DNA of 64,000 nt from Stygiolobus caldivivus (GTDB lineage: Archaea > Thermoproteota > Thermoprotei_A > Sulfolobales > Sulfolobaceae), in contig NZ_AP024597.1 of the NCBI RefSeq assembly GCF_019704315.1, positions 992,001-1,056,000 of the forward strand. The letters are read 5' to 3'. Position numbers and translations under genes: made by a program. Shown piece by piece: positions 3,770-62,114 of the stretch. The stretch's first letter is position 1; the number at the start of each line of letters is the position of its first letter. The notes beneath the pieces are model-generated. The model was not told where the DNA came from. It saw only the letters and a list, made by a program, of their open reading frames with translations, and ran no database searches.

Positions 3770-4465
3770 ATGTCAATAGCTGATGAGATCAAGAAAGTGT
3801 TGACAGAGAACCCTTCAATATTAGCTGACGTTCTAACCTCGCACCCCGAAATTATTTACCAAGCCCTCGCGAGGCTCACGCCGTGGCAAAACTTGGCCAC
3901 AAAACAGGATACAGAGGAGATAAAGAAAAGCATGGCTACAAAAAAAGAAATAGAAGAAGTAAAGAAGACTATGGCCACAAAGCAGGAGCTCGAAGAAGTC
4001 AAGCAGGAGATCGCAGGTATTAAGAAAGTCATGGCCACAAAGCAAGACATAAAGGCCTTAGAAGTGATGATCAGCGCCTTAGGCACCAGGTGGGGGATCC
4101 TAGCTGAGGACGTGTTCAGAAAAGGCATGATGGAGCTCTTGTCTGGTACGAACTGGAAAGTAGACAGAGAAATAATTTTTGACAAGGAGGGGATAGTCTT
4201 CGGTTACCCGTCGGAAGTAGAAATAGACGTGGTTATTAGTGACGGCAGGGTAATACTAGTCGAACTGACGGCCTCGCTGAAGAGGAGCGATTTGGTCCCC
4301 TTCAGCAAGAAAAAGGAATTATATGAAAAAGAGAAAGGGCGTAAAGTCTCTGAAGTGGTCGTAATTACCCCCTTCATCGACGACAAGAACGAGGAGAGGA
4401 TAATAGCTATAGCTAAGTCGTTAGGCATCAGGATAATAAAACCGAGCGAAATCAACCCCTACTGA
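3770..4465 (+). CDS. DUF3782 protein with coiled coil and PD-(D/E)XK-like domain
   Basis: The protein has 231 residues. Residues 1-40 are a small helical head. Residues 41-100 are a coiled coil made of repeated MATKQ-x-EEVKK units. The C-terminal domain (about 104-231) has the shape of a PD-(D/E)XK nuclease core: E113, then EVEIDVV with D153, then VELTASLK with E165. The usual lysine two residues after E165 is T167, with K171 nearby. This is the DUF3782 family, numerous in Sulfolobales. Members are thought to be nuclease-fold proteins, but no activity has been assigned as far as I know. The gene is single, with its own TATA box and CAGG just before the ATG. Confidence 0.85.
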   Translation: MSIADEIKKVLTENPSILADVLTSHPEIIYQALARLTPWQNLATKQDTEEIKKSMATKKEIEEVKKTMATKQELEEVKQEIAGIKKVMATKQDIKALEVMISALGTRWGILAEDVFRKGMMELLSGTNWKVDREIIFDKEGIVFGYPSEVEIDVVISDGRVILVELTASLKRSDLVPFSKKKELYEKEKGRKVSEVVVITPFIDDKNEERIIAIAKSLGIRIIKPSEINPY

Positions 4466-6206: not shown

Positions 6207-6298
6207 CCTTTAGTGCCATGAAGGACTGACGATGGGTCACCTTAGTTAACGATTTTTTACGCAATTTATCGGGTCTTTTAGTCCTGTGAAGGATTAAC
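6207..6298 (-). CRISPR. decayed distal repeats of array 1
   Basis: Two degenerate repeats (6207-6230 and 6275-6298) precede the first intact repeat at 6341 with spacings of 68 and 66 bp. Both keep the ends CTTT...GGA(C/T)T(A/G)AC. Their centres read ATGAAG and GTGAAG, as in array 5, not ATGAGG as in array 1. Confidence 0.85.
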
Positions 6299-6340
6299 AA
6301 GAGTATATGTGATGGATAAACACATGATAAGGCTGATTTC

Positions 6341-9448: not shown

Positions 9449-10558
9449 CAACACGGACCCAAACAGCCATTAGAATATAAGGTTATATACTCTGCAAAAA
9501 GCTGATAGCCTCCGGTATTGATGTAAGAGCCCTCAGGGCACCAGAATGTGTAAGGCGCGGCCGTCACGCATCGGGCTAATATGAGCAGCTACCAGTCCAC
9601 GGGTAAAGCCCCTCTCCTACAGGCACTTAACACAAGGAGGGTAATATGGGCGTAAGCACTCAAGGTTGTGCTTACTGACACGCTCTTTCCGGTAGACGTC
9701 GGGGGCTATTTTCAACACGTCCTGTGTTGCTCAGAAAGTCGAGGCCCTTGAAAATTTACGAAGGTAACGGGCGGAGTCCCCCAACAGCGTAGCCCTACCC
9801 CCTTTAGGCCTCAATGTGTTTGACCGGCCCGTGAAGCGTGGTACACAGTATTTAGTAAAATACTAAAAAGGGCACCCAAACGAGGGTAGTTTGGCCGTCC
9901 AGTCCCGCGCTCCCCCCCCCCCCCCGACAGCATAAAACCCACAACCCCCGCGGCCGCCGTTTTTAGTACTGCCCACACCTTGAAGAGCGGCAGTTTTCGT
10001 TGCAGAGGCCTAACACGGACGGGTGCGACTAGTCCCTACCAGCGTAAAAAGGGTTAAGCACCGTTAAGGACGCTTTACGTGTCCGGACTGAAAGGCCACC
10101 GCCCGGGGAACTTGTCGGTTTAGGGTAGCAGTTATTAAAAAATAGTGATAGCAGTGCATACCCTAAACGTATACGTTAATGCCAACACCGGTCTTACGTT
10201 AATGGCCTACTATTTCCGACTGTATGGTACGTAATAGCACACATGTAATTGGTAAATACACGTCGACACTGGGGACTTAAGTAGAGTGCTACTCAGCATG
10301 TTACAGCCCGCCTGGCTTTGTGGGGGCGGTTCACATGGGCGGACAGTGCAGTTTAGCAGTCCCATAAGCTAAGTAAAAGTGTCATACTGTCCTGCTCAGA
10401 GTACCTATCGTCTGGGTTTAGCAGTCCCATAAACTAAGTAAAAAGGTGGGAAAGGGGAATTAACAAACGCGGCTAACCCCGTGGTGACCTAAGTCCCCCT
10501 CGGGTACCACGCCTCACTGCGTGTCCGGTCTTACAGCCGGTACGGCTCTCGGCACCCT
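9449..10558. other. GC-rich non-coding stretch with a 65-bp-period direct repeat
   Basis: No gene is supported. A run of 14 C lies at 9912-9925. A near-identical 28-29 bp repeat occurs at 10351 and 10416, starting GTTTAGCAGTCCCATAA. The 65-bp spacing equals one CRISPR unit. Confidence 0.5.
10351..10444. repeat. CRISPR-period direct repeat
   Basis: Two copies of a 28-29 bp sequence with one mismatch (AAGCTAAG against AAACTAAG), starting 65 bp apart. Confidence 0.6.
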
Positions 10559-12691: not shown

Positions 12692-12778
12692 GTATACATT
12701 AAACGGCTTTATTCCTATGAGACGGTGGTGGAGATGGGGGTGGCGGTGGTGGGTATACATTAAATGGTTTTATTCCTC
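12692..12778. repeat. CRISPR-period direct repeat
   Basis: GTATACATTAAA(C/T)GG(C/T)TTTATTCCT occurs at 12692 and 12753, 61 bp apart with two mismatches. Confidence 0.55.
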
Positions 12779-13047: not shown

Positions 13048-13285
13048 GTGGAGCTACGATGCGGGGGCTAGTCAGAACTAATATTTAAGCTTTGACAATC
13101 TTGTTATTAGTAGTGGAGCTACGATGCGGGGGCTAGATAACTGATGGGCTGTTACAAGGACACATAGAAGAAATTAGTGGGGTTACGGCACGGGGTGGGG
13201 GTAGGACTAAACGTAGCTACTACTGCATTATCCGCACCGCTTTGCCACAGTTTCAGCACGGGGGGGGGGGGAGGACTAAACACTC
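13048..13285. repeat. decaying CRISPR-like run, period 64-66 bp
   Basis: A 24-bp unit beginning GTGGAGCTACG and ending GGGGGCTAG is exact at 13048 and 13113. It recurs in degenerate form at 13177 (GTGGGGTTACGGCACGGGG) and about 13243, where it is becoming a pure G run. Unit length and period equal those of the live arrays; the sequence does not. Confidence 0.6.
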
Positions 13286-13411
13286 CTTAACTATCGCGGC
13301 GGGGGAGGGGTGAGCGTAGGGGAGTGTAATAGCCCGAGGCGTTACAGCTCCGCTTACCGTAACGGCCCCTACAGCGTGGACTTTAATAAAGGCGGGAGGA
13401 AAAAGGTTGTC

Positions 13412-13804
13412 ATGGTGGACTTCCTCAGGACTAACGCCAAGCAGTTCCTCGAACAAGCGAAGTTTTCAATGCAAAGGGGGTTTTATAACCTGGTGTTATT
13501 TAACGTCGAACAAAGCGTCCAACTGAACTTAAAATACTTACTGTATTTGTCATCAGGGGACTTCCCTAAGACCCACAGGCTCTCAGACCTTTTCAGGCTT
13601 ATAAAAGCAGTAGATGACCCTTGCGGCGTGTACACTTTTTACGAGGGTAACAAGGACTTCCTCACGGTCATAGAGTTGTCTTATATTTCCAGTAGGTACT
13701 TACCGCAATCGTTCTCAGAGGAAGACGCCGAAAAAGCTTTAAAGTTAGGGGAGGAGTTTGATAAGTTAGTTGAAGGATGCGTGAAGAGTACGAAAAGGTA
13801 CTGA
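13412..13804 (+). CDS. HEPN-domain protein
   Basis: I chose the ATG at 13412 (131 residues); a TATA-like TTTAATAAAG is centred 26 bp upstream. The protein is all-helical, with the HEPN hallmark LFNVEQSVQLNLKYLLYL followed by GDFPKTHRLSDL. HEPN proteins of this type pair with a minimal nucleotidyltransferase (MNT). In characterised pairs HEPN is an RNase or toxin-like subunit and MNT modifies and silences it. The MNT gene follows and overlaps by 28 nt. A second pair of the same order is at 53855-54546. The canonical R-x4-6-H motif is not obvious, so this could be a non-catalytic HEPN. Confidence 0.85.
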   Translation: MVDFLRTNAKQFLEQAKFSMQRGFYNLVLFNVEQSVQLNLKYLLYLSSGDFPKTHRLSDLFRLIKAVDDPCGVYTFYEGNKDFLTVIELSYISSRYLPQSFSEEDAEKALKLGEEFDKLVEGCVKSTKRY

Positions 13805-14130
13805 GGGCGATCTACGAGGAGAGAAAGGAAATACTGGGCAACATAGAGAAGTATTTGAAAGGGGTTAAGGACAGTGTGTTGGAAAAAGACCCCGGGGCGA
13901 AAGTCCTCCTCTTCGGGAGCTTTGTCAGGGGGGACTTCAGGCCGGACAGCGACATAGACGTCCTGATAATATCCGACGAGTTCGGCGACGACCCACACAA
14001 ATACGCTGAACTGGTCAATTACATAAGGGACAGGATAAAGCGGTATTCACTCTTCGAGTTCCACGTAGTCACGAGAAAGACTTACGAGGAGTGGTATAAA
14101 AGGTTTATAGACGTGTATAAAGAAATATGA
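13777..14130 (+). CDS. MNT-type nucleotidyltransferase
   Basis: The protein has 117 residues. The catalytic motif GS-x10-D-x-D is intact: G47-S48, then SDIDVLI with D59 and D61. The N-terminal 45 residues are helical and charged. MNT enzymes transfer AMP or another nucleotide to a partner; in HEPN/MNT pairs the HEPN protein is the target. Start ATG at 13777 overlaps the HEPN gene in another frame, so the two are coupled. Confidence 0.88.
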   Translation: MREEYEKVLRAIYEERKEILGNIEKYLKGVKDSVLEKDPGAKVLLFGSFVRGDFRPDSDIDVLIISDEFGDDPHKYAELVNYIRDRIKRYSLFEFHVVTRKTYEEWYKRFIDVYKEI

Positions 14131-14543
14131 ACCCACCAAGTCGGTGCGGTGTGGGGGGCCTTACAGTGGGGGCACGTTAGAGCACTGTGAGCTGGGCCTC
14201 ACCTGAAGCCCCCGCGTTTACACCCTCTGCCGGTAGGGGTGCGGTATAATGTACCCGCGGTCGAGGCTTTTAAATCCGGGGAGCGGGCACAAAACGGGTG
14301 TGAGCGACGTGAGGGTGAGCCTCGACGCTACGTCATTTCACCGGCTGACGTGTGTCCCCGCCTCATAATAGCCCCTTTCCTACACTCCGTAGCTTCTAAC
14401 AGTGTCAAAGGCCGGCTCCACGTCGCGGGAGTAGCCCACTCCCCTTTTGACGGGGCTGGCGGGGGGCGTGGCGGTGGCGGTCTCTTGGATAACGGGGGAC
14501 GAAACAGAACCCTAAGTCGGCTAAAGTAACCGTGGTGACACTC
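14131..14543. other. GC-rich non-coding stretch
   Basis: The open frame through this DNA has low-complexity Gly/Arg composition and no promoter, so I do not call a gene. Confidence 0.4.
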
Positions 14544-14873
14544 CTTTCAATTTCGTTAAAGGCAAAAAGGAGAGGTTAAAGGGAGCAGTCCCGGACGGTG
14601 TCATACCTTTCAGTCCTGTGAGCTTGGGTACCGGGTTTGTCGACGTAAAAGTTAATTTCCCTTTTCCAATTTAGCTGAGGGTTAACTTTGTACTATAGCA
14701 CCGGAGGGTCGGGTTGACGCGACCCGCTTTCGACTCTATAGTGATCTAACAGCAAAAAACGGGAGTGACGTAAGGGTACCCCGTTATTGACTTTCAACCC
14801 TGTGGTAGGTCAACGTCCCTGCAAGACCCCATAACCGCATCGTCGTTTACTTTCAACTCTGTGGCGGACTAAC
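14544..14873 (-). CRISPR. fossil CRISPR array of the live repeat family
   Basis: Six degenerate repeats start at about 14544, 14607, 14663, 14727, 14791 and 14850, with spacings 56-64 bp. The last three are exactly 24 nt: CTTTCGACTCT...TCTAAC, CTTTCAACCCT...GTCAAC and CTTTCAACTCT...GACTAAC. The ends CTTTCRA and YAAC are kept, while the centre and the spacers have drifted to high GC. No leader is attached. It lies between arrays 1 and 2 in their orientation. Confidence 0.85.
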
Positions 14874-16571: not shown

Positions 16572-19500
16572 CTTTCAATTCCATTGAGGATTAACGAACA
16601 TGCAGAAGTATTTAGATTCCTCAATGAGGGACTTTACTTTCAATTCCATTGAGGATTAACGTGTGAAATAACGTTACCGATAACAGTTACCGTCTTTAAC
16701 CTTTCAATTCCATTGAGGATTAAGTTTCCGTCTCCAGTTCGCCTTTACTTTCTACGTCTTTTTCTTTCAATTCCATTGAGGATTAACGTGGTTTCAAAAA
16801 CTCTTAACGTTATGCAATTATACATTAATCTTTCAATTCCATTGAGGATTAACCTATTTCTTCATCCGTTAATTTGTCTTTATAATAATCAAACTTTCAA
16901 TTCCATTGAGGATTAACTCGTAGCCTCGAATAATTCGAGAGCCTCGTCTTTGTTTATCTTTCAATTCCATTGAGGATTAACGCAACACTTTGGATATTTG
17001 AATGGACTAGAAATATAGCAATAACTTTCAATTCCATTGAGGATTAACTTCGCTGTTGAGGTCATCTATGGCTTCCTGGACGCATTCCTTTCAATTCCAT
17101 TGAGGATTAACCCCTTCAATAACGCTCCCATTACCTTAGCCTTATCCTCCTTTCAATTCCATTGAGGATTAACTTGAACATTTACGTTAGTTTGTACAGA
17201 GTAAGTGTTAATTATGCTTTCAATTCCATTGAGGATTAACGTAGGGAAATAATTTAGCCTTCCACACCTCTACATTAATCCCACTTTCAATTCCATTGAG
17301 GATTAACGAGTTTAAGACCGAGTTACTGAAGATATTGCCCTCACAGTCCGTCTTTCAATTCCATTGAGGATTAACAGGGAAGAAGTTCCTGAAGTGAATA
17401 TATACCCTGTAAAACGTCTTTCAATTCCATTGAGGATTAACATGAATGCATAGGCGTACCATAAATTTATCAATTTTTCTCCTTTCAATTCCATTGAGGA
17501 TTAACTAGATATATTTCCTGATCTGTAAGGACTCTTCATCTTTTAACTTTCAATTCCATTGAGGATTAACTTCTGAAAGAAGCACTTAGGGTAGCTAAGC
17601 ACAAAGTGTTCTTTCAATTCCATTGAGGATTAACGTACCAGTTTAATGGTGACCCGTCAGATAGTTATTATGAACTTTCAATTCCATTGAGGATTAACAG
17701 ACTGACAAAGTATAAGCAATATTGTATAGCTGTCCATGATCTTTCAATTCCATTGAGGATTAACAATTGGTCAGTGCTTTCATTGTAAGCAAAGCGATAG
17801 AGAATCTTTCAATTCCATTGAGGATTAACATTGTCGAGTGTAGGTTTATGAGATATATTGGAAAACTTGTCTTTCAATTCCATTGAGGATTAACGCCGAG
17901 ATAATAGCGTTATTTGACCCAAGCAACGTTTCGGCTTTCAATTCCATTGAGGATTAACAGTAAAGACCCGATAGGCTGGTTTCTAAAGAAATCGGAACAG
18001 CTTTCAATTCCATTGAGGATTAACGAAATCGCAAAGGCGACTAGATCGCACCCTTCCATGACTTTCAATTCCATTGAGGATTAACATATCGATAATCTAC
18101 TTAGGTTACCTAGCATAAAACTTTCTTTCAATTCCATTGAGGATTAACTTGGAGCAATTATTTAAATTCCTTAAGCCTAACGAATTTGTCTTTCAATTCC
18201 ATTGAGGATTAACAAAGAGCTTGCTACTGCAACTAAAAATTTTGAGATCCAAACCTTTCAATTCCATTGAGGATTAACTCACCCTCCTCAGCCTTATGCT
18301 TATGTCCTCTAGGTTCTTTCAATTCCATTGAGGATTAACAACACGTTAGGTGGAGCCGTATACATAATTGCACCGATATTCTTTCAATTCCATTGAGGAT
18401 TAACCTCTAACCTCCTTCCATGTGCTTATTCCTAAATACCATTTCTTTCAATTCCATTGAGGATTAACAGTATCTTAGGTTCACTTAGGGCATATACGGC
18501 AAGTAATGCTTTCAATTCCATTGAGGATTAACTTGGACATGCAGATCCGTGTTGGTGACAAAATCGTGTCCTTTCAATTCCATTGAGGATTAACAACACT
18601 CCTTTCACTTTTTCAGGAGGTATCTGTTTTTTCTTCTTTCAATTCCATTGAGGATTAACCCTATGCCCATTATTGCACCGATTATTAACATAGTATAATC
18701 TTTCAATTCCATTGAGGATTAACAGTGTTATTCAACACGTAATCCGGTAAATCTAATTCGCTTTCAATTCCATTGAGGATTAACTTCACAGACGGGACTA
18801 ACATAAATGTTAGAAGCTTAGAGCACTTTCAATTCCATTGAGGATTAACGTCGATATCAAATATCATGAAACCCTATGAAAGCTATAAGTCATGGCTGAC
18901 TTTCAATTCCATTGAGGATTAACAAACTGGTTTATGCATAGTTATAATTGGGGATAAGAAAAACTTTCAATTCCATTGAGGATTAACTTGGTTCAGGATT
19001 CTTCTGGTATAATATTTGTAAAGCGTTCCTTTCAATTCCATTGAGGATTAACCCTTGCAGCAGTTTCTCTGATACCCTTAGCCGCAACCCTGCTTTCAAT
19101 TCCATTGAGGATTAACTTAATATTGAAAAATTGCAAAATGAAGAATATAAAATCCTTTCAATTCCATTGAGGATTAACTAAGTGCTTCCTTATGACCGGA
19201 ATTTCGGCGATGTTCAAGTCTTTCAATTCCATTGAGGATTAACGAATTGTAAAGCTAGGTGCGGTCGTCGTTGTGGTATTGGTGATGCTTTCAATTCCAT
19301 TGAGGATTAACCAATTTCTAAGAAGTTTGTTGTCTAGAGCTCTATCAAATTTCTTTCAATTCCATTGAGGATTAACTCAGTTATAGATATGAATTTACCG
19401 ACTAGAGAAGAATTGACTTTCAATTCCATTGAGGATTAACGAAAGGCATAGGTCCCTGTAGGCGACTTAGACCATAATTGTCTTTCAATTCCATTGAGGA

Positions 19501-21690
19501 TTAACTAAACTGTTTGCCGTCTTTGGTCGTCCCCGTTATTTCCTTCTTTCAATTCCATTGAGGATTAACACAAACGTGTGTAAGCGAGTATGTGGATGAG
19601 GATATGCACTTTCAATTCCATTGAGGATTAACATGGTACTATTTAAGTACCGTATTGGAACCTTGACGGTACTATACTTTCAATTCCATTGAGGATTAAC
19701 AATGATAGAGCTTTAGTGGAAAAGCTTGTAAAAGAGGACCAGCTTTCAATTCCATTGAGGATTAACACACTACAACAACGGTATATTCCACAACTTTGAT
19801 TACCACTTTCAATTCCATTGAGGATTAACATTTTCTTACATTCCCTTCTTCATATTCTATATCTGGTAACTTTCAATTCCATTGAGGATTAACCAAGGAG
19901 GGTGGTGCGTTAATTACCATAGGAGGGAAAGACTATACTTTCAATTCCATTGAGGATTAACACGATCATGAACTTTCCTTCTTTCTCGTCAAAAACAAGA
20001 TACTTTCAATTCCATTGAGGATTAACATATGATATAGAAAAATTATATATGAGGTTTCTGAATGCTTTCAATTCCATTGAGGATTAACACGAAATACCGG
20101 CGATGGCATACGGTTACGTCACACCGTCTATCTTTCAATTCCATTGAGGATTAACAAACAAGAGTGTTCTACTTATAGGTTATAGTGAAGTAGTACTTTC
20201 AATTCCATTGAGGATTAACCTGCCCCATGTCGTTATAGTAGTACAGTTTGAACGTGTGCACTTTCAATTCCATTGAGGATTAACTATAGGAAAGCTGTTA
20301 AATGCTTTAACTACTTGAAAGGTTTCTTTCAATTCCATTGAGGATTAACACGGGGTGGTGGGTAATGACGGTGTGTGAGGCGGGTTAGTCTTTCAATTCC
20401 ATTGAGGATTAACATTTCTCAAGTATTAAAAGACTCTGTAAACTCGTACGTAGCTTTCAATTCCATTGAGGATTAACGTAGTCGGTGCAGTAACAGTTTC
20501 GATCGTTAGCGGTGTTCTTTCAATTCCATTGAGGATTAACGGAGGGAGTGACGATATACACTCCGTCACCGAATCAGGTCTTTCAATTCCATTGAGGATT
20601 AACCCCTTCTGCCTTCCATAGTTGGTCGAAGGCGGAGAGGGTCTTTCAATTCCATTGAGGATTAACGAAGTTAAACGCGAAAATGATAGCGTCACAGTAT
20701 GTGAGAAACTTTCAATTCCATTGAGGATTAACAGATCTAGCTGGTGATGTATTATATAAATTAGGAGTATGGCTTTCAATTCCATTGAGGATTAACAAGA
20801 AGCCGTAATTGAGAGGGCATTAAAGGCACTGGAAAACTTTCAATTCCATTGAGGATTAACTGATTCTGGGACATGTTCTATTTTCATCAAAAGATCAAGA
20901 CTTTCAATTCCATTGAGGATTAACGAGTAAGGAAGGAAGGGAAGGCTCTTAATCAGTTCATGAGCTTTCAATTCCATTGAGGATTAACTTTTCGCCAAAA
21001 CATGTAACAATAGACAGACAAAAACTTACTTTCAATTCCATTGAGGATTAACTTCTACAGGATTTACACTCCTTCTACACCCGCTGTAGACTTTCAATTC
21101 CATTGAGGATTAACTCCCCGCAAGCTATTGGGTAAAGTTCCTTAGCCGTAATTACCTTTCAATTCCATTGAGGATTAACCTTTTATCGAAACAATTTCGG
21201 GGAGGAGTGTAGTGAAGTACTTTCAATTCCATTGAGGATTAACTTTTTTCTAAGGTAGTGGGAAGATGTTTGAGTTTGTCCTCTTTCAATTCCATTGAGG
21301 ATTAACGATGGCTAAAGACAAAGTGATCTTGAGGGCGAAAATCGTCTTTCAATTCCATTGAGGATTAACCCTTACGTTTGCCCGCTGTGTTTGATACCCT
21401 TTTCATCGTCAGCTTTCAATTCCATTGAGGATTAACTTCGTAGCGTTAGCATTCGCTAGATATGCAGCACTTCTTGCTTTCAATTCCATTGAGGATTAAC
21501 TGCCAAAGAAGTATTGATTTTTTTCCCTTTTTAAGTGATGCTTTCAATTCCATTGAGGATTAACATGTATTGGTTATTCATGATTTCGGTGATAGGTAGT
21601 TTCTTTCAATTCCATTGAGGATTAACATAGTGAAGTTGATGATGAAGCACCTACTGATGCTGATTGCTTTCAATTCCATTGAGGATTAAC
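16572..21690 (-). CRISPR. CRISPR array 2
   Basis: I count about 80 repeats of 24 nt. The repeat starts CTTTCAATTCC, has the centre ATTGAG and ends GATTAAC; the third repeat ends GATTAAG. The period is about 64.5 bp. The leader is on the right, so it is read on the minus strand, away from the adaptation cas genes. Frames reported inside it are read-through of the repeat (LILNGIE). Confidence 0.97.
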
Positions 21691-22000
21691 TGAATGTTTT
21701 TATACTATGTCTATCCTTAATTTTGCTCTTCTCTTATATAAGCTTTGTTGTACTTTACAGTTTTGTCATGACTGAATTTTTGTCACTCCCTTGAAATTTC
21801 GGGAGTTTGATAAAGAGATTTACGTCTTACGTACTCTCTGTGAAGAATTTTTCCGCTCACTGACTAATTGAAAGCAATTCCCGCTAAAATCCGGGAATTA
21901 GGAGGGCGAAATACTTCATATTGCATAGAAGGAGTACGAAAAATAGACTATACGACCGGTCCTGGACCGGGGCGGAGGTTATGCCCTACACACATGACGG
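21691..22000 (-). promoter_or_regulatory. leader of array 2
   Basis: About 310 bp, nearly identical to the leader of array 1, with the same stem (AATTCCCG/CGGGAATT), GTCAGTGAG-type motif and TTATATAAG TATA box. Confidence 0.85.
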
Positions 22001-23574
22001 GGTAAACGAGGCTAAACAGCAGTCAAAGGGCTGGTTTACGTAAGACATCATTTCAGTATTTTTTCCAATTCAGGTGATGACAGTGTCGACCTCGGGAAAT
22101 ACAAATCGAAATTGGGCATCAAATTTGAGTAGTACGGGTGGTGGCAATGCCTACCTCAAGGGTAGCGTTTATCAAAAGCATGACACTGGAGCAATGCCCG
22201 AAACTTTTACGTAAACGCTCATACCCGTTTTACGTCTAACCCTTAGGAGTCCCCGATCCGTGGCAGTAAAGTATGCAGGTCCTACCGCGTGAGAGGACAT
22301 ACAAGATAAACTATAACCGATCCGTGGCAGAAAAGTACGCCACAGCTCAAACCCGGTTAGTATAAATCATTTTGCAGTCTGCAGGTTGAACCGTAACATT
22401 ATCACTTGGGCCCAAACCCGGTTAGTATAAATCGTGTATATCATAGTAGGGATTTTACGTAAAACGTTACACGAGCAAAGCACCTACTTCTTAAGAGGGC
22501 GTCTCTAACGCGACCCTAGGTTAGCAGATGAACTCCCGGGAGAGACCACCTTCTCGAGACGGAGTCTTTGACAAGTAAACAGTGGAAAAATACTACCTCA
22601 CATTAGGTCAAATGAAAGTCAACTAACTTCCTGGCCTTTCACGCGCCCTCCTGGGTCGTAACTTTCTACAAAACAAGTTCAGTCAGTGCTCAGATAGTAC
22701 GGTGTGCGTAAAGCATTCCGCATAAACTAAATTATAGACCCGCGACCTACGCTCCTTAACACACTACTTATCAATACTGTCAAATGTATATTTATACTTA
22801 GGCACTCATCAAAGGGTAAACTCCAGTCCGTGTAGGGGGGTAATATGTCCTAAACGCGGGAAGCTGGGTCACACTCAAGAGAGCCCCATCCCCCGTTCGC
22901 ATAAGGTAGTGGGGCCGTGACGGCCTAGTATGGTGAGTAAAAAGCGGACCGCGTTCGCGTAAGGTAGAAATTTGCTGGGCAGTAGTACGTAGGGCTACTT
23001 GCCCATTAGTCCCTGACGAGGACGGTCTGCCAGAACTACGGGCCACTCACCATAACGGCTCCCCCTTTAACCCCTGACAAAGCGTGACGCGGTGACCGTG
23101 ACCTGCAGTACGTTAGTGACAGACCGAATTCACCCCAGACAAAGGGTAACCCGGCTCACCTTATTTGGGCAAATAGGCGGCACATATCAAAAGGCCGATG
23201 CGCCGAAATACCGCCCTAGACGTGTAGGTGAACACCCCGTTTTACGTTAAAGCACCCGACCCCCACCTCTGAGGACATAACACCTTTATCCTGAAGTATA
23301 AAAAAGTGCCGGCACAAGTTTTTACGTAAAACGCCTCATAGAACCGTAGTCGTGGCCCCGTCCCTCTCCTCTGTGTCACAAGTTTTTACGTAAAACGCTT
23401 ACCGCCCGCCGGGTTAAACCGATAAAGGGGGGTGGGGGACAAAACGTCGCTTATCGGGCCATTTGGCACCGTTACTTCCCCTCCTCGGGCGGGAAAGGAA
23501 GGGTGGGACGAAGGAGGAGACAGGGGTTAAAAAGAAAAAAGCCCGTATACCCACGCGACCCCCTTACACTCCCT
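22001..23574. repeat. non-coding zone of CRISPR-period repeat pairs
   Basis: No gene is supported. Imperfect direct repeats of 16-28 bp occur in successive pairs: 22253/22317 (64 bp), 22348/22413 (65), 22894/22952 (58), 23071/23133 (62) and 23313/23377 (64). Each pair has its own consensus. I read the zone as one or more decayed arrays behind the array 2 leader. Confidence 0.55.
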
Positions 23575-24105
23575 TCACGAGTACACGCTAACCGGGCACA
23601 CCCTCCTGTACTGGCAGAAGTCACACTTCTCCCTGTTGACCGGCGGCGGTCTGTCGCTATTTATTACGCCCTCTATCTTCCTCACCACCCCCTCTATGTA
23701 ACTGTAATGTTCTTCTGTGGGCTCTACCTCTAAAGCCTTCTTACCGCCCATAAACAGCACCGCCCTCTCCACCCTCCCTAGCCTTTTCCTCACCAAGTAA
23801 GCGTAAGCGAGTAACTGGTACCTGAAGTGCGAGAAGTCCCTCCTCTTATACGCCTTGTCCTCTACTACGACGAAGTCCTTGTCCCCAGACAAGACGTCGA
23901 CGCAGCCGTAAAGGCCGTTATAACTCAGGCACACCTCATACCTTATGGGCTCCTTTAACCCGAGGGCTTTCACCGCCACCTCGTGGGACACCTTACCTCC
24001 TTCCTCCATGGAGAAGGTACGGGGCTCCCTGTACCCGACCACGTAGTTTATCCACGGTATAGCTTTACAGAAGTGGTACTGTTTCACGTCTGTCACTGTC
24101 ACCAC
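23575..24105 (-). CDS. cas4: Cas4 exonuclease
   Basis: The protein has 176 residues from GTG. It carries the four cysteines of the Cas4 iron-sulfur cluster: C13 near the N-terminus and C161, C164, C170 at the end. The RecB-like core is H41, D70, E82-D83-K84 and the FRYQLLAYAYL helix (QYR-type motif). Cas4 trims and selects prespacers by their PAM side for Cas1-Cas2. It is the last gene of the csa1-cas1-cas2-cas4 operon and overlaps cas2 by 41 nt. Confidence 0.95.
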   Translation of the reverse strand: MVTVTDVKQYHFCKAIPWINYVVGYREPRTFSMEEGGKVSHEVAVKALGLKEPIRYEVCLSYNGLYGCVDVLSGDKDFVVVEDKAYKRRDFSHFRYQLLAYAYLVRKRLGRVERAVLFMGGKKALEVEPTEEHYSYIEGVVRKIEGVINSDRPPPVNREKCDFCQYRRVCPVSVYS

Positions 24106-24340
24106 TTATGACCACCCTCCTCTCCCAGTCCCTCAGGCCCAAGGGTATTATGTGGAGTATGTCCCCCTCCCCGTCTACGAGCTTGTCGCATACCCTGACC
24201 AAGTCCTTATACCTCTGTGGGTCTAAGTCCCCCACAAAGGCGCTCCTCTGGATCCTGCCCAGGCCGAGCCTCTGTAGCTCCCTGGCCACCTTGTTCCTCT
24301 TCCCGTCGTCCGATATGTCATATACCACTAAGACCCACAT
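24065..24340 (-). CDS. cas2: Cas2 adaptation protein
   Basis: The protein has 91 residues with the ferredoxin-like fold. The conserved first strand is VLVVYDISDD with D8, followed by RIQRSAFVGDL. Cas2 dimers bridge two Cas1 dimers in the spacer-integrating complex. It starts 51 nt after the cas1 stop and overlaps cas4. Confidence 0.95.
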   Translation of the reverse strand: MWVLVVYDISDDGKRNKVARELQRLGLGRIQRSAFVGDLDPQRYKDLVRVCDKLVDGEGDILHIIPLGLRDWERRVVISGDSDRRETVPLL

Positions 24341-24391: not shown

Positions 24392-25297
24392 TCACCACAC
24401 CTTGACGAAACCCCTGAACTTCTCCTCACCCCTCACGGCCGACGCTAACTTCAGGGCGTACGCCCTTATGGCCTGTGAGCACGTCCTCACTTCACCCGCC
24501 TCGTCCTTTACCTTTGAGTTGAGCGCGTTTATCACACTGTCAGCTAATTTTTTCCTGCTTTCTGCGTCCAGTACTCCGTCTTTTACCTTCGGTTTAAACC
24601 CCTCCACGAAAAGCGAGACTAAGGGGAAGTCCACGGAGACGGGCTTGAACATCTCGGAAAAGTCGTAGACTAAGCTTAGCCTGCCGCTCCTGTCCTTGTG
24701 GACGAAACCGGCGTAGGGGTCCAGCCCTACCAGCTGGAGGGCCCTGTGGACGTTAGAGTACAGTATCGCGTACGCGTAGTTAAAGGACACGTTGTACCCG
24801 TCGGTGCTCTCTGGGTCTCTATTCTTCATGGGTATGATTCTGCTGAGGGCGTGCCAGTAATACCTAGCTGCTGTGGGCTCGTCATCTGTCTTACCCTCTA
24901 TCTGCTTGTAGTCGTCACCTTGTACCCCCAGTTTTTTGAACCAGAACTTCACGTGGTTGGCCTGGTTCCTGACCTTAGCCTTTATTATCTCGCGCGGGAT
25001 TTCGCTGTCCCCCCTGATGATGGCGAGGTACTGCCCCTTCCTGGTCTCCACTGTCTTTATGGGCTCCGACTGGAAGACCCTCCCGTAAGGCAACCCTCTG
25101 GAGTCGAGGAAGACCACGTCTATCCCGTGGTCTACGGCGAGCCTGATGGCCTTAGACGTTATGGTGACCCCCGAAGTCATTACCAGTATCTGGTCTACCT
25201 CTGCAGGGGAGATGTTCCTGGCCTTGCCCCCCTTCTTCGCCAACACGAAAGTGTTACCCTTTACGGAAAGCCTGACACCGTAGTCCGCTATCTCCAA
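24392..25297 (-). CDS. cas1: Cas1 integrase
   Basis: The protein has 301 residues from TTG; no better start is seen in frame. The metal-binding residues are E140 (DDEPTAARYYW), H200 (GFVHKDRSG) and D212 (VYDFSEMFKP), all intact. It inserts prespacers at the leader-repeat junction. It lies 77 nt downstream of csa1. The five arrays have related leaders, so it could serve them all. Confidence 0.96.
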   Translation of the reverse strand: MEIADYGVRLSVKGNTFVLAKKGGKARNISPAEVDQILVMTSGVTITSKAIRLAVDHGIDVVFLDSRGLPYGRVFQSEPIKTVETRKGQYLAIIRGDSEIPREIIKAKVRNQANHVKFWFKKLGVQGDDYKQIEGKTDDEPTAARYYWHALSRIIPMKNRDPESTDGYNVSFNYAYAILYSNVHRALQLVGLDPYAGFVHKDRSGRLSLVYDFSEMFKPVSVDFPLVSLFVEGFKPKVKDGVLDAESRKKLADSVINALNSKVKDEAGEVRTCSQAIRAYALKLASAVRGEEKFRGFVKVW

Positions 25298-25374: not shown

Positions 25375-26214
25375 TCACCTCCAACACACCTCGTAGAATG
25401 GGCAACTCTCCGGGCATTTTACCGGTTTCCCGGGGTCCCTGCCGTTCTGCACCATGTCCACCACTTCGTCCCTCCTGTCGAGGAAAGCCCTCCTTAAATC
25501 GGGGGAGACGTAATGGCCTTCAAACCTCACTTCGACGTTATTGGGGTACCCGTTGACGTAGACCAACAGCCCGTAGTCCACCGGTGTCTCCGTGACCGAC
25601 TCTATGGCGAGTGCGTACCCGGCTAGGGCGAACTTGTGGAAGTCCTCCTTTTTACCGGTCTTGACTTCGATGACGGTGAACTCACCTAAGGCGTCGATGG
25701 TCAGCCTGTCCGACATCCCTATAGCCGACCCGTCTACCCTAACTTCCGTAGACCAAGGGAGGAAGCCCACAGAGTCCCCGCCGTAAAACGCCCTCGCCTC
25801 GGCTACTTGGGAAGACCATATGAGGACCAAGTTACCGTAAACTTTCCTGCAGTAGTCGTACAGGTCTTGGGGGCAGTACTCCTGCTCTAAGTAACTCTCT
25901 TTCACCACGTCGTAGGGGTCCTTACCCAGCACGTACATCCTCTTAACGTCGTTGAGGGCCTTTGAGAACACCTTGTGTACCGCCTGCCCGTAAGCCAGCT
26001 GGGGCCTCTCCGCCCCCTTCTCGCCTAGTACCCTCCTCAGGTAGACGTCCCTCTTCGTGGGGCAATAGTCGTAAGCTATGTCCGACATGGTAAGCCCCAT
26101 GTACGCCCTGGGCTTTACGGGCGGGGAATAATAGTGCCAGCCCCTGAGCTCGTCGGGGACCGGGTCGGACTCCCTGATGTGGTGGAGGCGCTTGAGGTGC
26201 TGTCTCCAGATCAT
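25375..26214 (-). CDS. csa1: Csa1, Cas4-like adaptation protein of type I-A
   Basis: The protein has 279 residues with a clear ATG. It is a Cas4-family RecB-like nuclease with C51, H80, MSDRLTID (D169), VIEVKTGKK (E183, K185), a QYR-like helix (FHKFALAGYALAIE, Q replaced) and the C-terminal cysteines C267, C271 and C277. Csa1 is found with Cas1/2/4 in type I-A adaptation operons of Sulfolobales and takes part in spacer acquisition. It is the first gene of the operon. Confidence 0.94.
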   Translation of the reverse strand: MIWRQHLKRLHHIRESDPVPDELRGWHYYSPPVKPRAYMGLTMSDIAYDYCPTKRDVYLRRVLGEKGAERPQLAYGQAVHKVFSKALNDVKRMYVLGKDPYDVVKESYLEQEYCPQDLYDYCRKVYGNLVLIWSSQVAEARAFYGGDSVGFLPWSTEVRVDGSAIGMSDRLTIDALGEFTVIEVKTGKKEDFHKFALAGYALAIESVTETPVDYGLLVYVNGYPNNVEVRFEGHYVSPDLRRAFLDRRDEVVDMVQNGRDPGKPVKCPESCPFYEVCWR

Positions 26215-26266: not shown

Positions 26267-26609
26267 TAATTCCCGGGTTTTAGAGGGAGTACGCCCGCGT
26301 GTAGCCCTTGGAGCCGCATTTACCGGGCACGAGGTGTGGGCTGAGGACGGGGGACCCTCCGTGGGGTCGAGGTGAGCCCGGGGGCCTAACACACTTTAAA
26401 TGGGGTAGCTGAGCAGCGACACGCCCAAGATGGGCTAGGGACTTGAAGCACCTCAGACTGTACGTTTTGTGTCACGTGTGCAGCGGCACGCCCAGCGTGG
26501 GCCCGGTTTTCCTTAAGTGAAAAACGGTAGCCCGTATCAGGCCGCGGTTACCCCCCCCCCCGCCTACTGTCAACGGGCCCAGGTCACGCCCCGCAGTCCC
26601 GGTCTACCG
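26267..26609. other. GC-rich non-coding stretch with a CRISPR-period repeat
   Basis: GCAGCG(A/G)CACGCCCA occurs at 26413 and 26480 (67 bp apart), each followed by a TGGGC. A run of 11 C lies at 26551-26561. No gene is seen. Confidence 0.45.
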
Positions 26610-26673: not shown

Positions 26674-27327
26674 ATGAAGTCCTATGTGTTCACGATGGGG
26701 GTACACGAGGACTTCGCCATAAGGAGGCTGGTGTCCACTAACGCGGCGAGGGAGGACGACGTCGTGTGCCTGTTCAGGTCCCCCATGACGAACGGGAACA
26801 GGAGGGCGTTAAACGCGTTAAACGCTGTTATGTCTAAGATGGGCTTAAGGGAGGCCGTCGCGAGGGAGGTGAGGGTAAGCGGGGGGATCCTCGACGTGGT
26901 GGACGAGGTCACCGGGGTACTTAACGACCTCAAAGACCCGTTAGTAGTAGACGTCTCCGGCGGGGAGAGTAAGGCGATGATGCTAGGCGTAGTCTTGTCT
27001 TTAGCTATAAACGGCAGGGCCGGTAGGGTGTACGTAGAGGAGGACGAGGAGTACTACTTCTCTATCGAAGACTTCAGGACGGCGGTGGAGGGCATAAAGG
27101 GGGAGGCGCTCGCCCTGTTAACAAACGTGGTGGCACAGCCCGGGATAAGGTATTCCGAGCTGGCCGAGAAGACGGGTAAGAAGTTGAAGACGGTGATGAA
27201 CTCTGTGGGCGTGTTGAAAAAGAAGAGGTTGGTCTACCAGAGGGGGAGGGGAGAAGGGGTCTACCCTACAAAGCTGGGCGTCATAGTGTGTAAGAGTAGC
27301 GTTGCCGGACGCGACCTATGTAGGTGA
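26674..27327 (+). CDS. csa3: Csa3, CARF-wHTH transcription regulator
   Basis: The protein has 217 residues. The N-terminal CARF domain (1-135) has the typical DVSGGESKAMML loop (D93-G97) that binds cyclic oligoadenylate in relatives. The C-terminal winged helix (about 143-205) reads YSELAEKTGKKLKTVMNSVGVLKKKRLV. It is divergent from csa1, the place of Csa3a, the known activator of the adaptation operon. It is the only csa3 gene in the window, so regulation of the interference genes must rely on it or on a regulator elsewhere. Confidence 0.93.
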   Translation: MKSYVFTMGVHEDFAIRRLVSTNAAREDDVVCLFRSPMTNGNRRALNALNAVMSKMGLREAVAREVRVSGGILDVVDEVTGVLNDLKDPLVVDVSGGESKAMMLGVVLSLAINGRAGRVYVEEDEEYYFSIEDFRTAVEGIKGEALALLTNVVAQPGIRYSELAEKTGKKLKTVMNSVGVLKKKRLVYQRGRGEGVYPTKLGVIVCKSSVAGRDLCR

Positions 27328-30291: not shown

Positions 30292-30570
30292 CTTACAATC
30301 CCGACGAGGTAGGGTCACTCCTAATTAACGCTTTTGACGTCCGGATGTCCGGGGTTAAAACAATCCCGTCGAGGTCGGGGTCACTGGGGTTAGACGCGGT
30401 ATGACTGCAATGGAGAGTGTCTTCTAACTCCGTCAAGGTGGTCTTCAGGTCGGTATGGTCGGTATCACGACGCTATGGGGCCTTCGGTACCGTCAAGGCG
30501 GTGGTGCATTATGGATCATTTTTACGTATTTGTAGTCCCTCCTTTTAATTTTGTCAAGGTGGGGGGTGAT
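30292..30570 (-). CRISPR. fossil CRISPR-like run upstream of the array 3 leader
   Basis: Five degenerate repeats share a core (C)CGTC-RAGGT. The G of this core lies at 30303, 30368, 30432, 30492 and 30553, so the spacing is 60-65 bp. The best copies begin CTTACAATCCC, AACAATCCC and CTTTTAATTTT, like CTTTCAATTCC of the live arrays. No leader directs it. Confidence 0.7.
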
Positions 30571-31007: not shown

Positions 31008-37221
<6,214 letters not shown>

Positions 37222-37783
37222 GGTGAAAGTGTGAGGGTCGAAGTGCCGGACAAGGTGTATTTCCTTAGGACTTTGATCTGGAAATTGAGTAATAACTTTT
37301 CTTCTTTTCTCTATCATTTCGCCCCATATTGGACTTTGATCTGGAAATTGAGGGCGTCAGAGTAAAAGCCGAAACCGACACACGTCTTGACGGAGAGGTG
37401 TAACCGTGACCGGGGGGGGGGGGATTTTCGACACGGTACCACATAACCCTTCCGACGGACCTTGGGCTGTACTGCTCCTATGGAGTGTCTACTTTCGTAA
37501 AGATGTCCGGTACTAAGTTCCTCTAAAAGGGGTGGAGCCAATACGGCACAGCGACGTTTTGGGGTGACACCCCCGCCGGTGCCACCTTCAAACCGGCGTA
37601 GGCGTCAGACCCCTTACCCCGAGGCGTTAATACGAGCGGTTGACCGCTAACCGCGTGTGGGGCGCCGTTTACACGGAGCGGCGGCTTCAGGGCGACGACG
37701 TGTGCGTACCGCTACGCTGTGACGGGCTGAAAAAGCCTTGCACGTCTGTGCCCAACGCCTACCCCTACCTTCCAGCCGTTGGC
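37222..37783. other. non-coding stretch
   Basis: It holds a CRISPR-period repeat (37268/37331) and a run of 12 G at 37412-37423. No gene is seen. Confidence 0.4.
37268..37352 (+). repeat. CRISPR-period direct repeat
   Basis: A 22-bp sequence starting GGACTTTGATC and ending GGAAATTGAG is exact at 37268 and 37331, 63 bp apart. It can be aligned to the array 3 repeat (GTTAATCC...GGAATTGAAAG), so it may be two remnants of that array's distal end. Confidence 0.6.
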
Positions 37784-38062: not shown

Positions 38063-38919
38063 CCCGTAATCCTATCTAGGGCACACATTATTATCTTTTG
38101 CGGGCCTTAACGGGCGCCGCATCTGATTCCCGTTTGGCTGACACGGCCCCGTGGAGTGACAGCCTACCATGACCGGTGCCGAGGTTTTCAGTAAGACGGG
38201 GGTACCTTTGGGGCGTCTCGTAGCTACCCCGCCCCCTAAGGCGCCGGGTGGGGGGGAGAAGTAGGGGCCACAGCCCCGACGCGCAGCTGTGTATCACGAC
38301 AGTCGTGGGCCGGGAGGACTAGTGCGTAAACGCCTACACGGGTGCCCGATGGGGGAAACCCCTTGTTTAACGGCAGCCCTGATAGGCCCTTACGCCGACA
38401 CCGCTCAAATACCGCGGACGCAGTTACGTAGTCCGAGGTCGGGGGTACGAAGAGCTTGGCCACGACGGAGCAAACGTGCCGGTAGGACGGGCCCCGCTTA
38501 CCGGGGTTTAGGTAAAAGCCTCACGAGTTCCCCCTACTCCTACTAACTTAATAGTCACGGCACCAAGCCTCAGGTAGGGGCTACTCAAGACCGACTACGA
38601 GTACCGCACCGACAAAGGGCGTGTCTCGGACTTTAAACGGGCGTTACGCTGAAAAAGCCGGGTCTACTCCACCCGGTTCGGGGGTTCCGGCAGTCCTCGT
38701 GCTGGCCTTCTCTCACCGTGGCAGCACACACGCGAGTACCGAAGGCGTTTAGGGGTGATAGGCCCCTTTCGCAGTCGGGTGGGGGTGTAACGTGAGTTAT
38801 GTGGCCCCACGGTCGGGGGCCCCTCGTGAGGGGTGTGCGACACGGTCAAGCCGCATGACTTGGGCTCATTAGGGCCCCCTAGCGTCTTTAGGACCTCAGG
38901 CTTTAAAATTTTTAGCATT
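38063..38919. other. GC-rich non-coding stretch
   Basis: Several overlapping frames exist but none has coding character or a promoter. No repeat stands out before 38920. Confidence 0.4.
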
Positions 38920-39240
38920 CCCCTAACAAGAACGGTATTAGTGGAGGCGTTCTCGTATACAGCCTTTACTTCCTCCGGTGCTCCCCTAACGGGTACGGTA
39001 TTCTAATGCTCGTGTCACAAACCATTCTTAATAATCTAGAGGCGCCCCCTAACGGTGACGGTGTTACTTGTCCCGTGGGCTCTATATAAGCCGTAGTGCA
39101 CTCCCCTAACTGGAGTAGTGTTATTTGCAGTGACGAAGAGGGCACAAATAGGAATTGAAGGCAATCCACTAACTGAAACCGCGCGACGTTTACGGTACTA
39201 AAACCTCAGGCTTAAAGTTTTTTGCACTCCCCCTTACACC
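38920..39240. repeat. six-unit relic repeat run, period 57-63 bp
   Basis: The core CCCCTAAC or a near variant starts at 38920, 38983, 39046, 39103, 39166 (CCACTAAC) and 39229 (CCCCTTAC). Four of the five steps are exactly 63 bp. Similarity continues to the right (ACGGTATT, ACGGTGTT, TAGTGTTATT). The intervening sequences are unrelated, as in a CRISPR array. It lies upstream of the array 4 leader. Confidence 0.7.
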
Positions 39241-42700: not shown

Positions 42701-44545
42701 AGTAGAATTGTATACGAGTTAATCCCTCATGGAATTGAAAGTCTTGAGACATAAACCATGCCCTTTTTCGCATATGCCAAAGTTAATCCCTCATGGAATT
42801 GAAAGGAAAGTTTGGTAGTCAGAGACCCTAAATATCTGGGTAAGTTAATCCCTCATGGAATTGAAAGAGGCTACATTTCGAAAGAAAAATCGGAACTAGC
42901 AAAAGCGAGTTAATCCCTCATGGAATTGAAAGCTCTTTTCGTAAAGGTGGGTGTGTTACACAGGAGGGGTTAATCCCTCATGGAATTGAAAGCTCCTCCC
43001 GCGGTTTTCCTAAAATTGTCCTGAGTTTCACGTTAATCCCTCATGGAATTGAAAGTCTTCCCTACCTTGATTACCCCGCTATCACTAAGTGTTACGTTAA
43101 TCCCTCATGGAATTGAAAGGTGTACTCGTTTTATGTAGCTGAAGTTAAAGCTTATGCGAAGTTAATCCCTCATGGAATTGAAAGACTTGAGCTAAATATA
43201 TGTATGTTAATGCATAAAGTAATAGGGTTAATCCCTCATGGAATTGAAAGACTTGAGCTAAATATATGTATGTTAATGCATAAAGTAATAGGGTTAATCC
43301 CTCATGGAATTGAAAGAATATTAGAAAACTGAACGTTACAAGTCAGATAATCTCACGTTAATCCCTCATGGAATTGAAAGAAAAATGCTAGACCAGCTAT
43401 AGCACCGCCCATTGCAGCGTTAATCCCTCATGGAATTGAAAGTTGGAAAGACAAAGAGAGGATTAAACAAGACATTGAAATAATGTTAATCCCTCATGGA
43501 ATTGAAAGTAGTCCTTGATGCGTTGGACTTCTCTCGTAGCAAGCCTGTAGTTAATCCCTCATGGAATTGAAAGTTGCTATAAAGCATCGACCTCGGCGTA
43601 CCCATTACCAATTCGCGTTAATCCCTCATGGAATTGAAAGATACTCAAACACAAATTTGTATCTTCTCTTATTTGTCCCCGTGTTAATCCCTCATGGAAT
43701 TGAAAGCTAGTAATAGTATGATTAAAGATCTCAATACTATTGAATAGTTAATCCCTCATGGAATTGAAAGATATCTTTGCACAAACTGGAAATTTCAGTG
43801 ATGAAGTTTATGTTAATCCCTCATGGAATTGAAAGTTATGTGGGTGAGTAATAAATTTAATAAGTATATCGCTAAGTTAATCCCTCATGGAATTGAAAGT
43901 CATCCCAGCTCTCTCTAGGTGTATATAACCACTCTGGTATGTTAATCCCTCATGGAATTGAAAGTCAAACTCCTCAAAGGTGAGCTGAATGGCGGGGAAG
44001 AGGAGTTAATCCCTCATGGAATTGAAAGGACATTCATATAAGCGTGTTCATATAGCCACTTAGCCTTCTCTGTTAATCCCTCATGGAATTGAAAGCATGA
44101 TAACAAGGACGTGGAACGCGGGAACCATAGAAATAAGTTAATCCCTCATGGAATTGAAAGTTTACTGTTCTTGCCGAAATAATAATCTATAACACCAGCG
44201 TTAATCCCTCATGGAATTGAAAGACAAGTAAATCCCAACTGTTAGTGAACACTATAATGTCTACGTTAATCCCTCATGGAATTGAAAGTTGATATCTTAA
44301 ATACTAAGTTATGTACTCTGTACTGTTTTGCGTTAATCCCTCATGGAATTGAAAGTGTCATAAACGGTATGGGTAGAGAGGACTTAGGTTCGTTTGTTAA
44401 TCCCTCATGGAATTGAAAGACACATTGCGTTATATTGTACTATTTTTATATTTGTATATATGTTAATCCTTCCCGGAATTGAAAGTAACTGTACAGTGCG
44501 CGGAATATGTGTGGTGTCTGTTATGTTAACCCTTAGAATTTAAAG
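39751..44545 (+). CRISPR. CRISPR array 4
   Basis: I count about 73 intact repeats (39751-44419), starting GTTAATCC and ending GGAATTGAAAG, with the same repeat as array 1 (ATGAGG centre on the other strand). Two degenerate repeats follow: 44462-44485 (centre GGGAAG on the other strand) and 44525-44545 (21 nt). The leader is on the left. One spacer starting ACTTGAGC is tandemly duplicated near 43185 and 43251. Confidence 0.97.
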
Positions 44546-54546: not shown

Positions 54547-54913
54547 GCCCCCACCTCTCATAAGACCGTAGTCGTGGCCCGTCCCTGTCCACTGTAAAGT
54601 CTACGGGGAAGTCGACTGCTGTAAAGGCGACCTGCAGGGCTTTGTAAAACGCCCTCCCCGTGTGAGGTCCTGGGGCAGTCCCGCTCCCTGACCTAAGGCT
54701 TGCTGGCGAAGGCCTATGTAGTCCCCACCCCCGCACTGGGGGCTTTGCCCATAACCTACCCGAAATTTTAATATAAGCCCCTATCGTCTCCTCTGAGGGG
54801 CCCACGTAAAGGTACCTTAACTTAGGCTTAGGTCTGTCGGTATAATAGACGAAATACTCCCCCTTGTCCCCTCGCGTGGAGGTGTTACCCGTATGAATGA
54901 CTTCACGTGTCAT
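54518..54913 (-). CDS. possible small protein upstream of the HEPN/MNT pair
   Basis: The frame has 131 codons. ATG at 54913 has AAGGAG 2 nt upstream and TTTTTAAG about 28 bp upstream, so the start looks real. The first 58 residues (EYFVYYTDRPKPKLRYLYVG) look coding; the middle is low-complexity Gly/Pro/Ser and may be a frameshifted part. It overlaps the HEPN start by 29 nt. No family recognised. It could be a decayed gene. Confidence 0.35.
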   Translation of the reverse strand: MTREVIHTGNTSTRGDKGEYFVYYTDRPKPKLRYLYVGPSEETIGAYIKISGRLWAKPPVRGWGLHRPSPASLRSGSGTAPGPHTGRAFYKALQVAFTAVDFPVDFTVDRDGPRLRSYERWGHEKGTGRRV

Positions 54914-60396: not shown

Positions 60397-62114
60397 GATA
60401 AACAACTTAAAACACATAGTTTAAAAGTATTTTCGCAATACCCCTTCGAAGACTTTAAATTTGCATTATCTATAAAGCATGGCTCATTCTTTTAGAACTA
60501 TTTCCAAAAGGTTGACCGGTCATAATACTTTATCTCCCACTTTGAAAAGTGTTAAAAGGATAAAGTAATTTTAAAAGAATATAATATATATAAAAACTGT
60601 TCTAAATATAAATCAATTATTAACCCGTCACCTTTACGCCTTTTCACGCTAACACTTATTGAAAGTCCTTACAGCCGGGTATTACCCTAAATATTTATGT
60701 AAATACTTATACATGACCTTATGTTAAATTACCAAAAAACCCTTATTTCCAGTCGCGGAGTACGTAACAGCACACACATGACCGGTAAAAACACGTAGAC
60801 GCGACGGCCTTACGTAAAACGTCGCACGTGCTATGTATTAATATCGCTTAATGCGGGCTAACTGCTTCACCCGGTCACGGTTAGACAAACGGGGACCGTA
60901 AAGGCCGTGAGAGACCCCTCGGTGTAACCGGTGGGCCACATTTAGAGTTACCCTAAAAAGTATGACGCGGCTTCTTCTCGTCAATTCTTACTAAAAATTA
61001 TAAAACACCCCGCTTACACGTCTAACTGTGAGGCGGGGATAATCACGGGAAAACTACCGCTCGACGACTTTGAAGTATTAGAGAGCCTCACCCCGGTCAG
61101 ATATTATTAGCCTTCTTCTCTTTTTTCTTTATTTTCTCCCCCTTCTCTTTTTCCGCAACGAGATCATCCCTTACGGATAAGCGTTTACCCGTGGCGTGAC
61201 CCACCCTAACTTCTGCTCCCGCCACGGGGCACCCCTAACGGGCCGTACACCGTCACCTCAGATTTGTCGGGCCAACCGGGAGGTGGGGAGAAGGAAGATG
61301 ATAAGTCTACATACGGTAGAAGAAGTCCATCCCGAGGTCTACCATGTCGGAGAAGGAAGATGACATATCCACCGTTTTTGTTTTATTAACCTCGTCTATA
61401 TGGGGGCGGAGAGGAGGGAGACACTTACCTTCCCACCCTTACTTACACCACCCCCTATCCCCTGAGCATGGCCCGTCACTTGTAGGGAGGTTATCTAAGT
61501 ACCCAAGTAATACTCTACAGACGTGACCATGGTGATGAAGGTCATATTGAAGAGCGTTTAAGGGAGTTCAAAAGTTACATAAAGTTGTTACGGTCTGGGG
61601 GGAATGATTATCACACTATGGGATATCACACTAAATGTATTCAAAAGTAGTCAAACACGTTACACCGTGAAAAAACGTAAAGCCACGGGACGATAACTTA
61701 GTTTATGGGGGGGAGGGGGACAACGCCGCTAGTTCAACGACACGGGTGCCGTGTTATAGCGTGGACGCGGGACTGCTTAATAGACGCAGTATTTATCAGC
61801 GGCGTGGTAGTTAGGAAGTAGGATCCGTTAATCGGAGAGTGTCAACACCGGTCATAGGTAAAGACACACGGGTTCTTGTGCCGAGGCGTTAGGCTATGAA
61901 GGGGTCATCAGGGGGAGGGAAAGCCCAAGTGCCTCGATCGTGTCGAGACGTGAGGGGCTGAAGGGACTTAGGAGGACGGACTAGTGGCCGCGTCTCCGAG
62001 GCATAGAATAGAAACCGACGCCGATAACAGCGTTCTCGGTTCACTGTGTCTTAATTGTGCAAAGGCGTTGGAAGTGGTTTGCTCCTGATACAATGGCCCT
62101 CTAAGCGTAACAAG
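60397..62114. other. long non-coding stretch
   Basis: No gene is supported. GAGAAGGAAGATGA occurs at 61288 and 61350 (62 bp apart). A G-rich run is near 61706. The part before about 60700 is AT-rich; the rest is GC-richer. Confidence 0.45.
61288..61363. repeat. CRISPR-period direct repeat
   Basis: A 14-bp exact repeat at 61288 and 61350, 62 bp apart, lies upstream of the array 5 leader, as the runs at 30292 and 38920 do for arrays 3 and 4. Confidence 0.4.

Follow-up and report, generated by a model that had tools for sequence, protein, structure and literature searches.

Probable scars of off-target CRISPR spacer integration beside the arrays of Stygiolobus caldivivus

Introduction

Off-target spacer integration and the neo-CRISPR loci that it creates were reportedly described by Nivala, Shipman and Church in 2018 (Nat Microbiol), and putative natural cases are said to have been noted there in Sulfolobus islandicus and Yersinia pestis. 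In Streptococcus thermophilus, ectopic spacer acquisition has been observed inside arrays (PMC7999890, PMC5338259). According to a study of S. islandicus, Cas1 integrates non-specifically in vitro, is repressed by Csa3a and is released by leader binding (PMC9456107).

Here, we analyze a window of 64 kb (the whole stretch of DNA under study), which covers positions 992001-1056000 of a single-contig genome of 2.96 Mb and contains many short repeat pairs at CRISPR-like spacing. We conclude with high confidence that each pair is the scar of an off-target CRISPR spacer integration.

Results

CRISPR arrays and adaptation genes

Five arrays were identified in the window, all belonging to one CRISPR system with a native repeat of 24 bp (CTTTCAATTCCATTGAGGATTAAC and close variants) and 310 spacers with a mean length of 40.6 +/- 1.8 bp. 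In the second CRISPR system of the genome, repeats measure 30 bp (GTTTCAAGCCCCCAAGGGATTGCTACAAAC) and spacers 37 bp. The five pairs of the original prediction (22253-23398) are located between cas4 and the leader of array 2; this leader begins at 21691 and runs leftward into its array. Beside them lies a complete adaptation operon (csa1-cas1-cas2-cas4) with an adjoining csa3 gene:

16572-21690, array 2
21691-22000, minus strand, leader of array 2, shared at 85-90% by other arrays of the genome
23575-24105, minus strand, cas4 (Pfam PF01930)
24065-24340, minus strand, cas2 (PF09827)
24392-25297, minus strand, cas1 (TTG start; assigned from operon position and matches to other Sulfolobales loci)
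25375-26214, minus strand, csa1 (PF06023)
26674-27327, plus strand, csa3 regulator (PF22662)

The predicted system is a type I-A adaptation complex, Cas1-Cas2 with Cas4/Csa1, and the relatives of the window Cas1 are found in the Sulfolobales and neighbouring archaea.

Rfam and tRNA scans of the window gave no matches. A HEPN and nucleotidyltransferase (MNT) gene pair at 13310-14130, likely a toxin-antitoxin module, sits between ectopic units. Within the arrays, an exact 66-bp repeat-spacer unit occurs as a tandem duplicate (43161-43317), and one spacer was found twice (35773-35813 and 35967-36007). The noncoding segment 22714-22794 is about 74% similar over 81 bp to positions 1567928-1568009 of the same genome.

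A peak in repeat distances at 57-69 bp

With the arrays masked, 21 imperfect direct repeats at a spacing of 57-69 bp were identified in the 64-kb window, as compared to 0.67 expected (Poisson P ~3e-24); repeats were counted at a score of at least 11 and the expectation was taken from distances of 80-600 bp. Twenty local shuffles gave 0.3 repeats at this spacing. The original prediction had claimed that the spacing of the pairs was not due to chance and had proposed the distance distribution as a check, with a flat distribution as the contrary outcome; the distribution is peaked at 57-69 bp, and the claim is borne out. When arrays and coding sequences were both excluded, 17 pairs remained in the noncoding DNA of the window at a score of at least 12, as compared to 0.08 expected.

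The density of noncoding pairs is 8.7 per 10 kb in the window and, with 800 kb of the remaining genome sampled, falls to about 2 per 10 kb at up to 20 kb from an array and to 0.65 farther away; the last class takes in a locus (L070) bordering a second-system array, so that the true far density is lower. The peak recurs near the arrays of four relatives, with 21 pairs identified against about 1.3 expected (6, 4, 9 and 2 pairs per genome versus 0.53, 0.12, 0.45 and 0.20). The surroundings of arrays at six loci of other archaea contain too little noncoding DNA for such a comparison.

Some of the window hits were set aside. Those at 3971, 5669 and 54024 (distances 60 and 66) lie within ORFs and are probably coding repeats, and the pair at 14787 consists of two decayed canonical CRISPR repeats rather than a unit of the kind described below. 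The pairs at 61287 and 61878 are weak. Decayed canonical CRISPR repeats were observed outside the arrays at about 14543-14870 and also at 6278-6300; they are left over from an old array or from the end of one, and those at about 14543-14870 are distinct from the repeat pairs.

Anatomy of the units

Each unit has the structure R-S-R, in which the insert S is present once and the repeat R is ordinary local sequence that differs in every unit. All five pairs of the original prediction, placed there at 22201-23400, were recovered with slightly shifted coordinates, and together with the other units of the window they are:

22253-22340, R-S-R; 22253-22276/22317-22340, 24-nt repeat (22/24), period 64, insert 22277-22316 (40 bp)
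22345-22433, R-S-R; 22345-22368/22410-22433, 24-nt repeat (23/24), period 65, insert 22369-22409 (41 bp)
22891-22967, decayed R-S-R; 22891-22909/22949-22967, 19-nt repeat, period 58, insert 22910-22948 (39 bp)
23067-23154, decayed R-S-R; 23067-23092/23129-23154, 26-nt repeat, period 62, insert 23093-23128 (36 bp)
23313-23398, R-S-R; 23313-23334/23377-23398, 22/22 identical, period 64, insert 23335-23376 (42 bp)
10351-10443, R-S-R; 28-bp repeat (27/28), 37-bp insert; 1.2 kb away from array 1 on its leader side
12692-12777, R-S-R; 25-bp repeat (23/25), 36-bp insert
13048-13136, R-S-R; 24/24 repeat, insert 13072-13112 (41 bp)
13182-13281, R-S-R; G-rich repeat of about 31 bp with an indel, 37-bp insert
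26410-26502, decayed R-S-R; between csa1 and csa3, 41-bp insert
30295-30385, R-S-R; 25/26-bp repeat, 40-bp insert; 0.64 kb away from array 3 on its leader side
37268-37352, R-S-R; 22/22 repeat, insert 37290-37330 (41 bp)
38919-39065, R-S-R-S-R, three copies; periods 63 and 63; leader side of array 4

The last of these, with repeat starts at 38919, 38982 and 39046, is the sole three-copy unit in the window. Decay is graded, from perfect copies at 13048, 23313 and 37268 to units that are heavily decayed.

Among 22 clear units from this genome and its relatives, R measures 24.0 +/- 2.0 bp and S 39.3 +/- 2.0 bp, and these lengths match the native 24-bp repeat and 40.6-bp spacers. On the leader side of one second-system array, two pairs were observed in which the repeats measure 30 and 31 bp and the inserts 36 and 37 bp; the occurrence of 30-31-bp repeats beside a system with 30-bp repeats indicates that the length of the duplication tracks the neighbouring adaptation system.

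Neither a consensus target motif nor a resemblance to the native leader-repeat site was found across the pairs, and there was no enrichment of stem-loops at the targets (P=0.24). The first target base shows a weak excess of G.

A palindrome, GTTTTACGTAAAAC, is located at window positions 22453, 23238, 23320 and 23384. It has 43 sites genome-wide (with at most one mismatch) as compared to 0 for a reversed-pattern control, is also found within the leaders of second-system arrays (1420973, 1446751), and is probably a regulator site.

Empty sites in related species

We examined two species of the same genus, G004 and G020, which show the same pair pattern. At position 2662855, G004 has three copies of (AC)TTCATTAAGAGTGAAAAAAGAG and two inserts, while G020 has one copy and no insert at 2620709-2620730. 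Likewise, three copies of CTTTATTCATAATGCTAATTCCGT at 2694294 in G004 correspond to a single copy at 2654379-2654400 in G020. A single copy without the insert in the sister species shows that the prior state was unrepeated DNA and not an array. At a site adjacent to the second locus, the two species have different inserts at overlapping, shifted targets (2694559 in G004, 2654527 in G020), which indicates independent events. One older pair is common to both species (2657014 in G004, 2612078 in G020), and the scars are thus heritable. New spacer-sized DNA was inserted with duplication of its target and subsequently decayed, and empty sites are present at the relatives' loci. For the pairs of the window itself, we found no close relative whose intergenic DNA could be aligned, and the congeneric genome G001 gave no DNA match to the pair region.

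These data bear on the possibility, raised in the original prediction, that several old CRISPR arrays with different repeats have been reduced to two surviving repeats each. Decayed canonical repeats do exist at about 14543-14870, and the three-copy unit at 38919-39065 resembles a mini-array. An array would carry at least three repeats of its own system beside a leader; the pairs consist of two non-CRISPR copies and lack a leader, and even in the three-copy exceptions (38919 in the window, 2662855 and 2694294 in G004) the repeats are foreign to the CRISPR system. Pairs with perfect repeats have neither a third copy nor any sequence in common, a dozen repeat families would be needed inside 64 kb, and at two loci the sister species has an empty site. 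Since nearly all units are single R-S-R events, each with its own sequence, we consider an origin from old arrays to be very improbable.

Origin of the inserts

Off-target integration implies that the inserts come from elsewhere, and for four of them an outside origin was observed. The insert at 13072-13112 is a 41/41 copy of positions 919580-919620 of the same chromosome, with match ends that coincide with the unit boundaries to within one base; the source has GTC, not CCN, at both ends. The insert at 23335-23376 and window positions 54557-54595 share 88% identity over 40 bp, and CCT is located immediately 5' of the latter. In G004, the second spacer of site B matches a large ORF of its own chromosome, which resembles tmcA, at 41/41 positions with CCT at one end, and the second spacer of site A matches a noncoding stretch in the Sulfolobus virus SMV1 (82%), the plasmid pBEU9E1 (84%) and pNOB8 (89%), of which only the pNOB8 copy is flanked by CCC. 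In at least one record each, the CCN PAM is thus found at one end in three of the four insert sources and is lacking in the fourth.

Two of the 15 ectopic inserts of the window are self-derived, as compared to none of the 310 native spacers with a full-length self match in the 864 kb of the genome that was compared (Fisher P ~0.002). Most inserts had no traced source in comparisons with a phage collection, IMG/VR and sampled genomes: in the phage collection, neither the region of the five pairs nor any of three further noncoding regions had a genuine virus match, and five exact 18-20-mers from inserts had no match in IMG/VR. Phage hits to 12719-12756 were low-complexity, G-rich and not genuine. 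The first insert of a three-copy unit in G004 (2662879-2662919) terminates with CTTTCAATTCCATTA, which is part of the canonical CRISPR repeat, and a CRISPR array may thus have been its source.

Non-CRISPR local duplication by replication slippage, template switching or recombination is generally a common source of direct repeats in noncoding DNA. It predicts broad distances and doubling of whole units, whereas the peak is restricted to 57-69 bp and the insert occurs once; moreover, some inserts copy distant or foreign DNA and the length of the repeat matches that of the CRISPR system nearby. The distance distribution refutes this explanation as a general one, and we regard it as exceedingly unlikely. 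The suggestion in the original prediction that repeat-spacer units were duplicated locally by the adaptation or recombination machinery and then decayed is retained in part, with the adaptation machinery as a candidate agent and with the decay, but not with regard to what was duplicated, since the insert is single and only the target of about 24 bp was doubled. Functional paired binding sites at fixed spacing, for Csa3 or another regulator, can practically be dismissed: the pair 23313/23377 does contain the palindrome that recurs in the genome and in second-system leaders, whereas no motif is common to the other pairs and the empty sites indicate recent insertion rather than conserved site pairs.

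Concentration on the leader side

In this genome and four relatives, the leader-side 2 kb of arrays, which amount to 26.0 kb of noncoding DNA, contained 23 pairs, as compared to 5 pairs on the trailer side (17.7 kb) and 17 pairs elsewhere (143.7 kb). The leader-side 2 kb, a zone drawn after the window data had been seen, is about sevenfold denser in pairs. A few of the 23 leader-side pairs belong to leaders or were copied along with them. Four are duplicated motifs located inside leaders or very close to them (1420925, 1446732, 112209, 162012), and about 7 pairs per 10 kb remain when these four are left out. A three-copy unit at 1095460-1095597 and a 24/40/24 unit at 1120757-1120844 are separated from the nearest array by 20 and 46 kb; ectopic units are thus not limited to array flanks.

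Discussion

To our knowledge, the only agent in these cells that gives such a product is the Cas1-Cas2 integrase, and we infer that it formed the scars. The Cas1-Cas2 complex, with Cas4/Csa1, would capture a fragment of about 40 bp and insert it by two staggered strand transfers about 24 bp apart, into ordinary DNA in the neighbourhood of an array rather than into the leader-repeat junction. Repair would then copy the target of about 24 bp, giving an R-S-R unit with a random R that decays afterwards, and a second spacer may occasionally enter the same target and generate a three-copy neo-array.

By analogy with the S. islandicus protein, the leader-side hot zone may arise because Csa3a lets go of Cas1 close to the leader. 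Complexes that are released at the leader and miss the leader-repeat junction would strike nearby DNA, which fits the leader-side excess. The self-derived spacers presumably survive because no guides are made from these repeats. Tentatively, and with somewhat less than even confidence, we propose that leader-side DNA is a permanent hot zone in which misplaced adaptation repeatedly seeds silent neo-arrays, which lack guides and therefore keep self-derived spacers. If this is true, neo-arrays record spacer capture before autoimmune selection and keep self spacers that are purged from real arrays, and those on the leader side provide a route to new arrays with new repeats.

In the scars, misplaced immune memories are preserved as in a fossil record, and some of these memories were copied from the cell's own chromosome. 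The fidelity of natural integration, the capture of spacers before autoimmunity removes those from self, and the birth of arrays are open questions that have so far mainly been addressed in engineered strains, and the scars offer a natural, dated record from sequence alone. They also provide a counting assay for integration errors that is usable in any genome with arrays.

Like the neo-CRISPR loci reported by Nivala et al. (2018), the units contain a spacer-sized insert between repeat-length copies of a non-CRISPR target. By contrast to the reported loci, many units occur here in one neighbourhood, with a concentration on the leader side and graded ages; their lengths match two CRISPR systems, and both empty sites and source matches were identified. 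A resemblance of the target to the native locus was not detected here. The ectopic acquisition in S. thermophilus is likewise misplaced integration by the adaptation machinery, with the difference that spacers enter an internal canonical repeat in that species and non-CRISPR DNA here.

The Csa3a-restrained Cas1 of S. islandicus (PMC9456107) comes from a system of the type found here, in which csa1-cas1-cas2-cas4 occurs together with csa3. According to that article, Cas1 integrates non-specifically unless it is held by Csa3a and is released at the leader, a model that would predict misplaced integration near leaders. That work is biochemical and genetic and, in its accessible text, does not describe genomic scars near leaders, and the concentration reported here makes the release model, as presented there, directly testable. 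In our literature search, which left most subscription papers outside, no report of such clusters beside leaders was found. The process as such is already known, and what is added by this study is the density of the units, the leader-side hot zone, the three-copy neo-arrays and the self-derived spacers.
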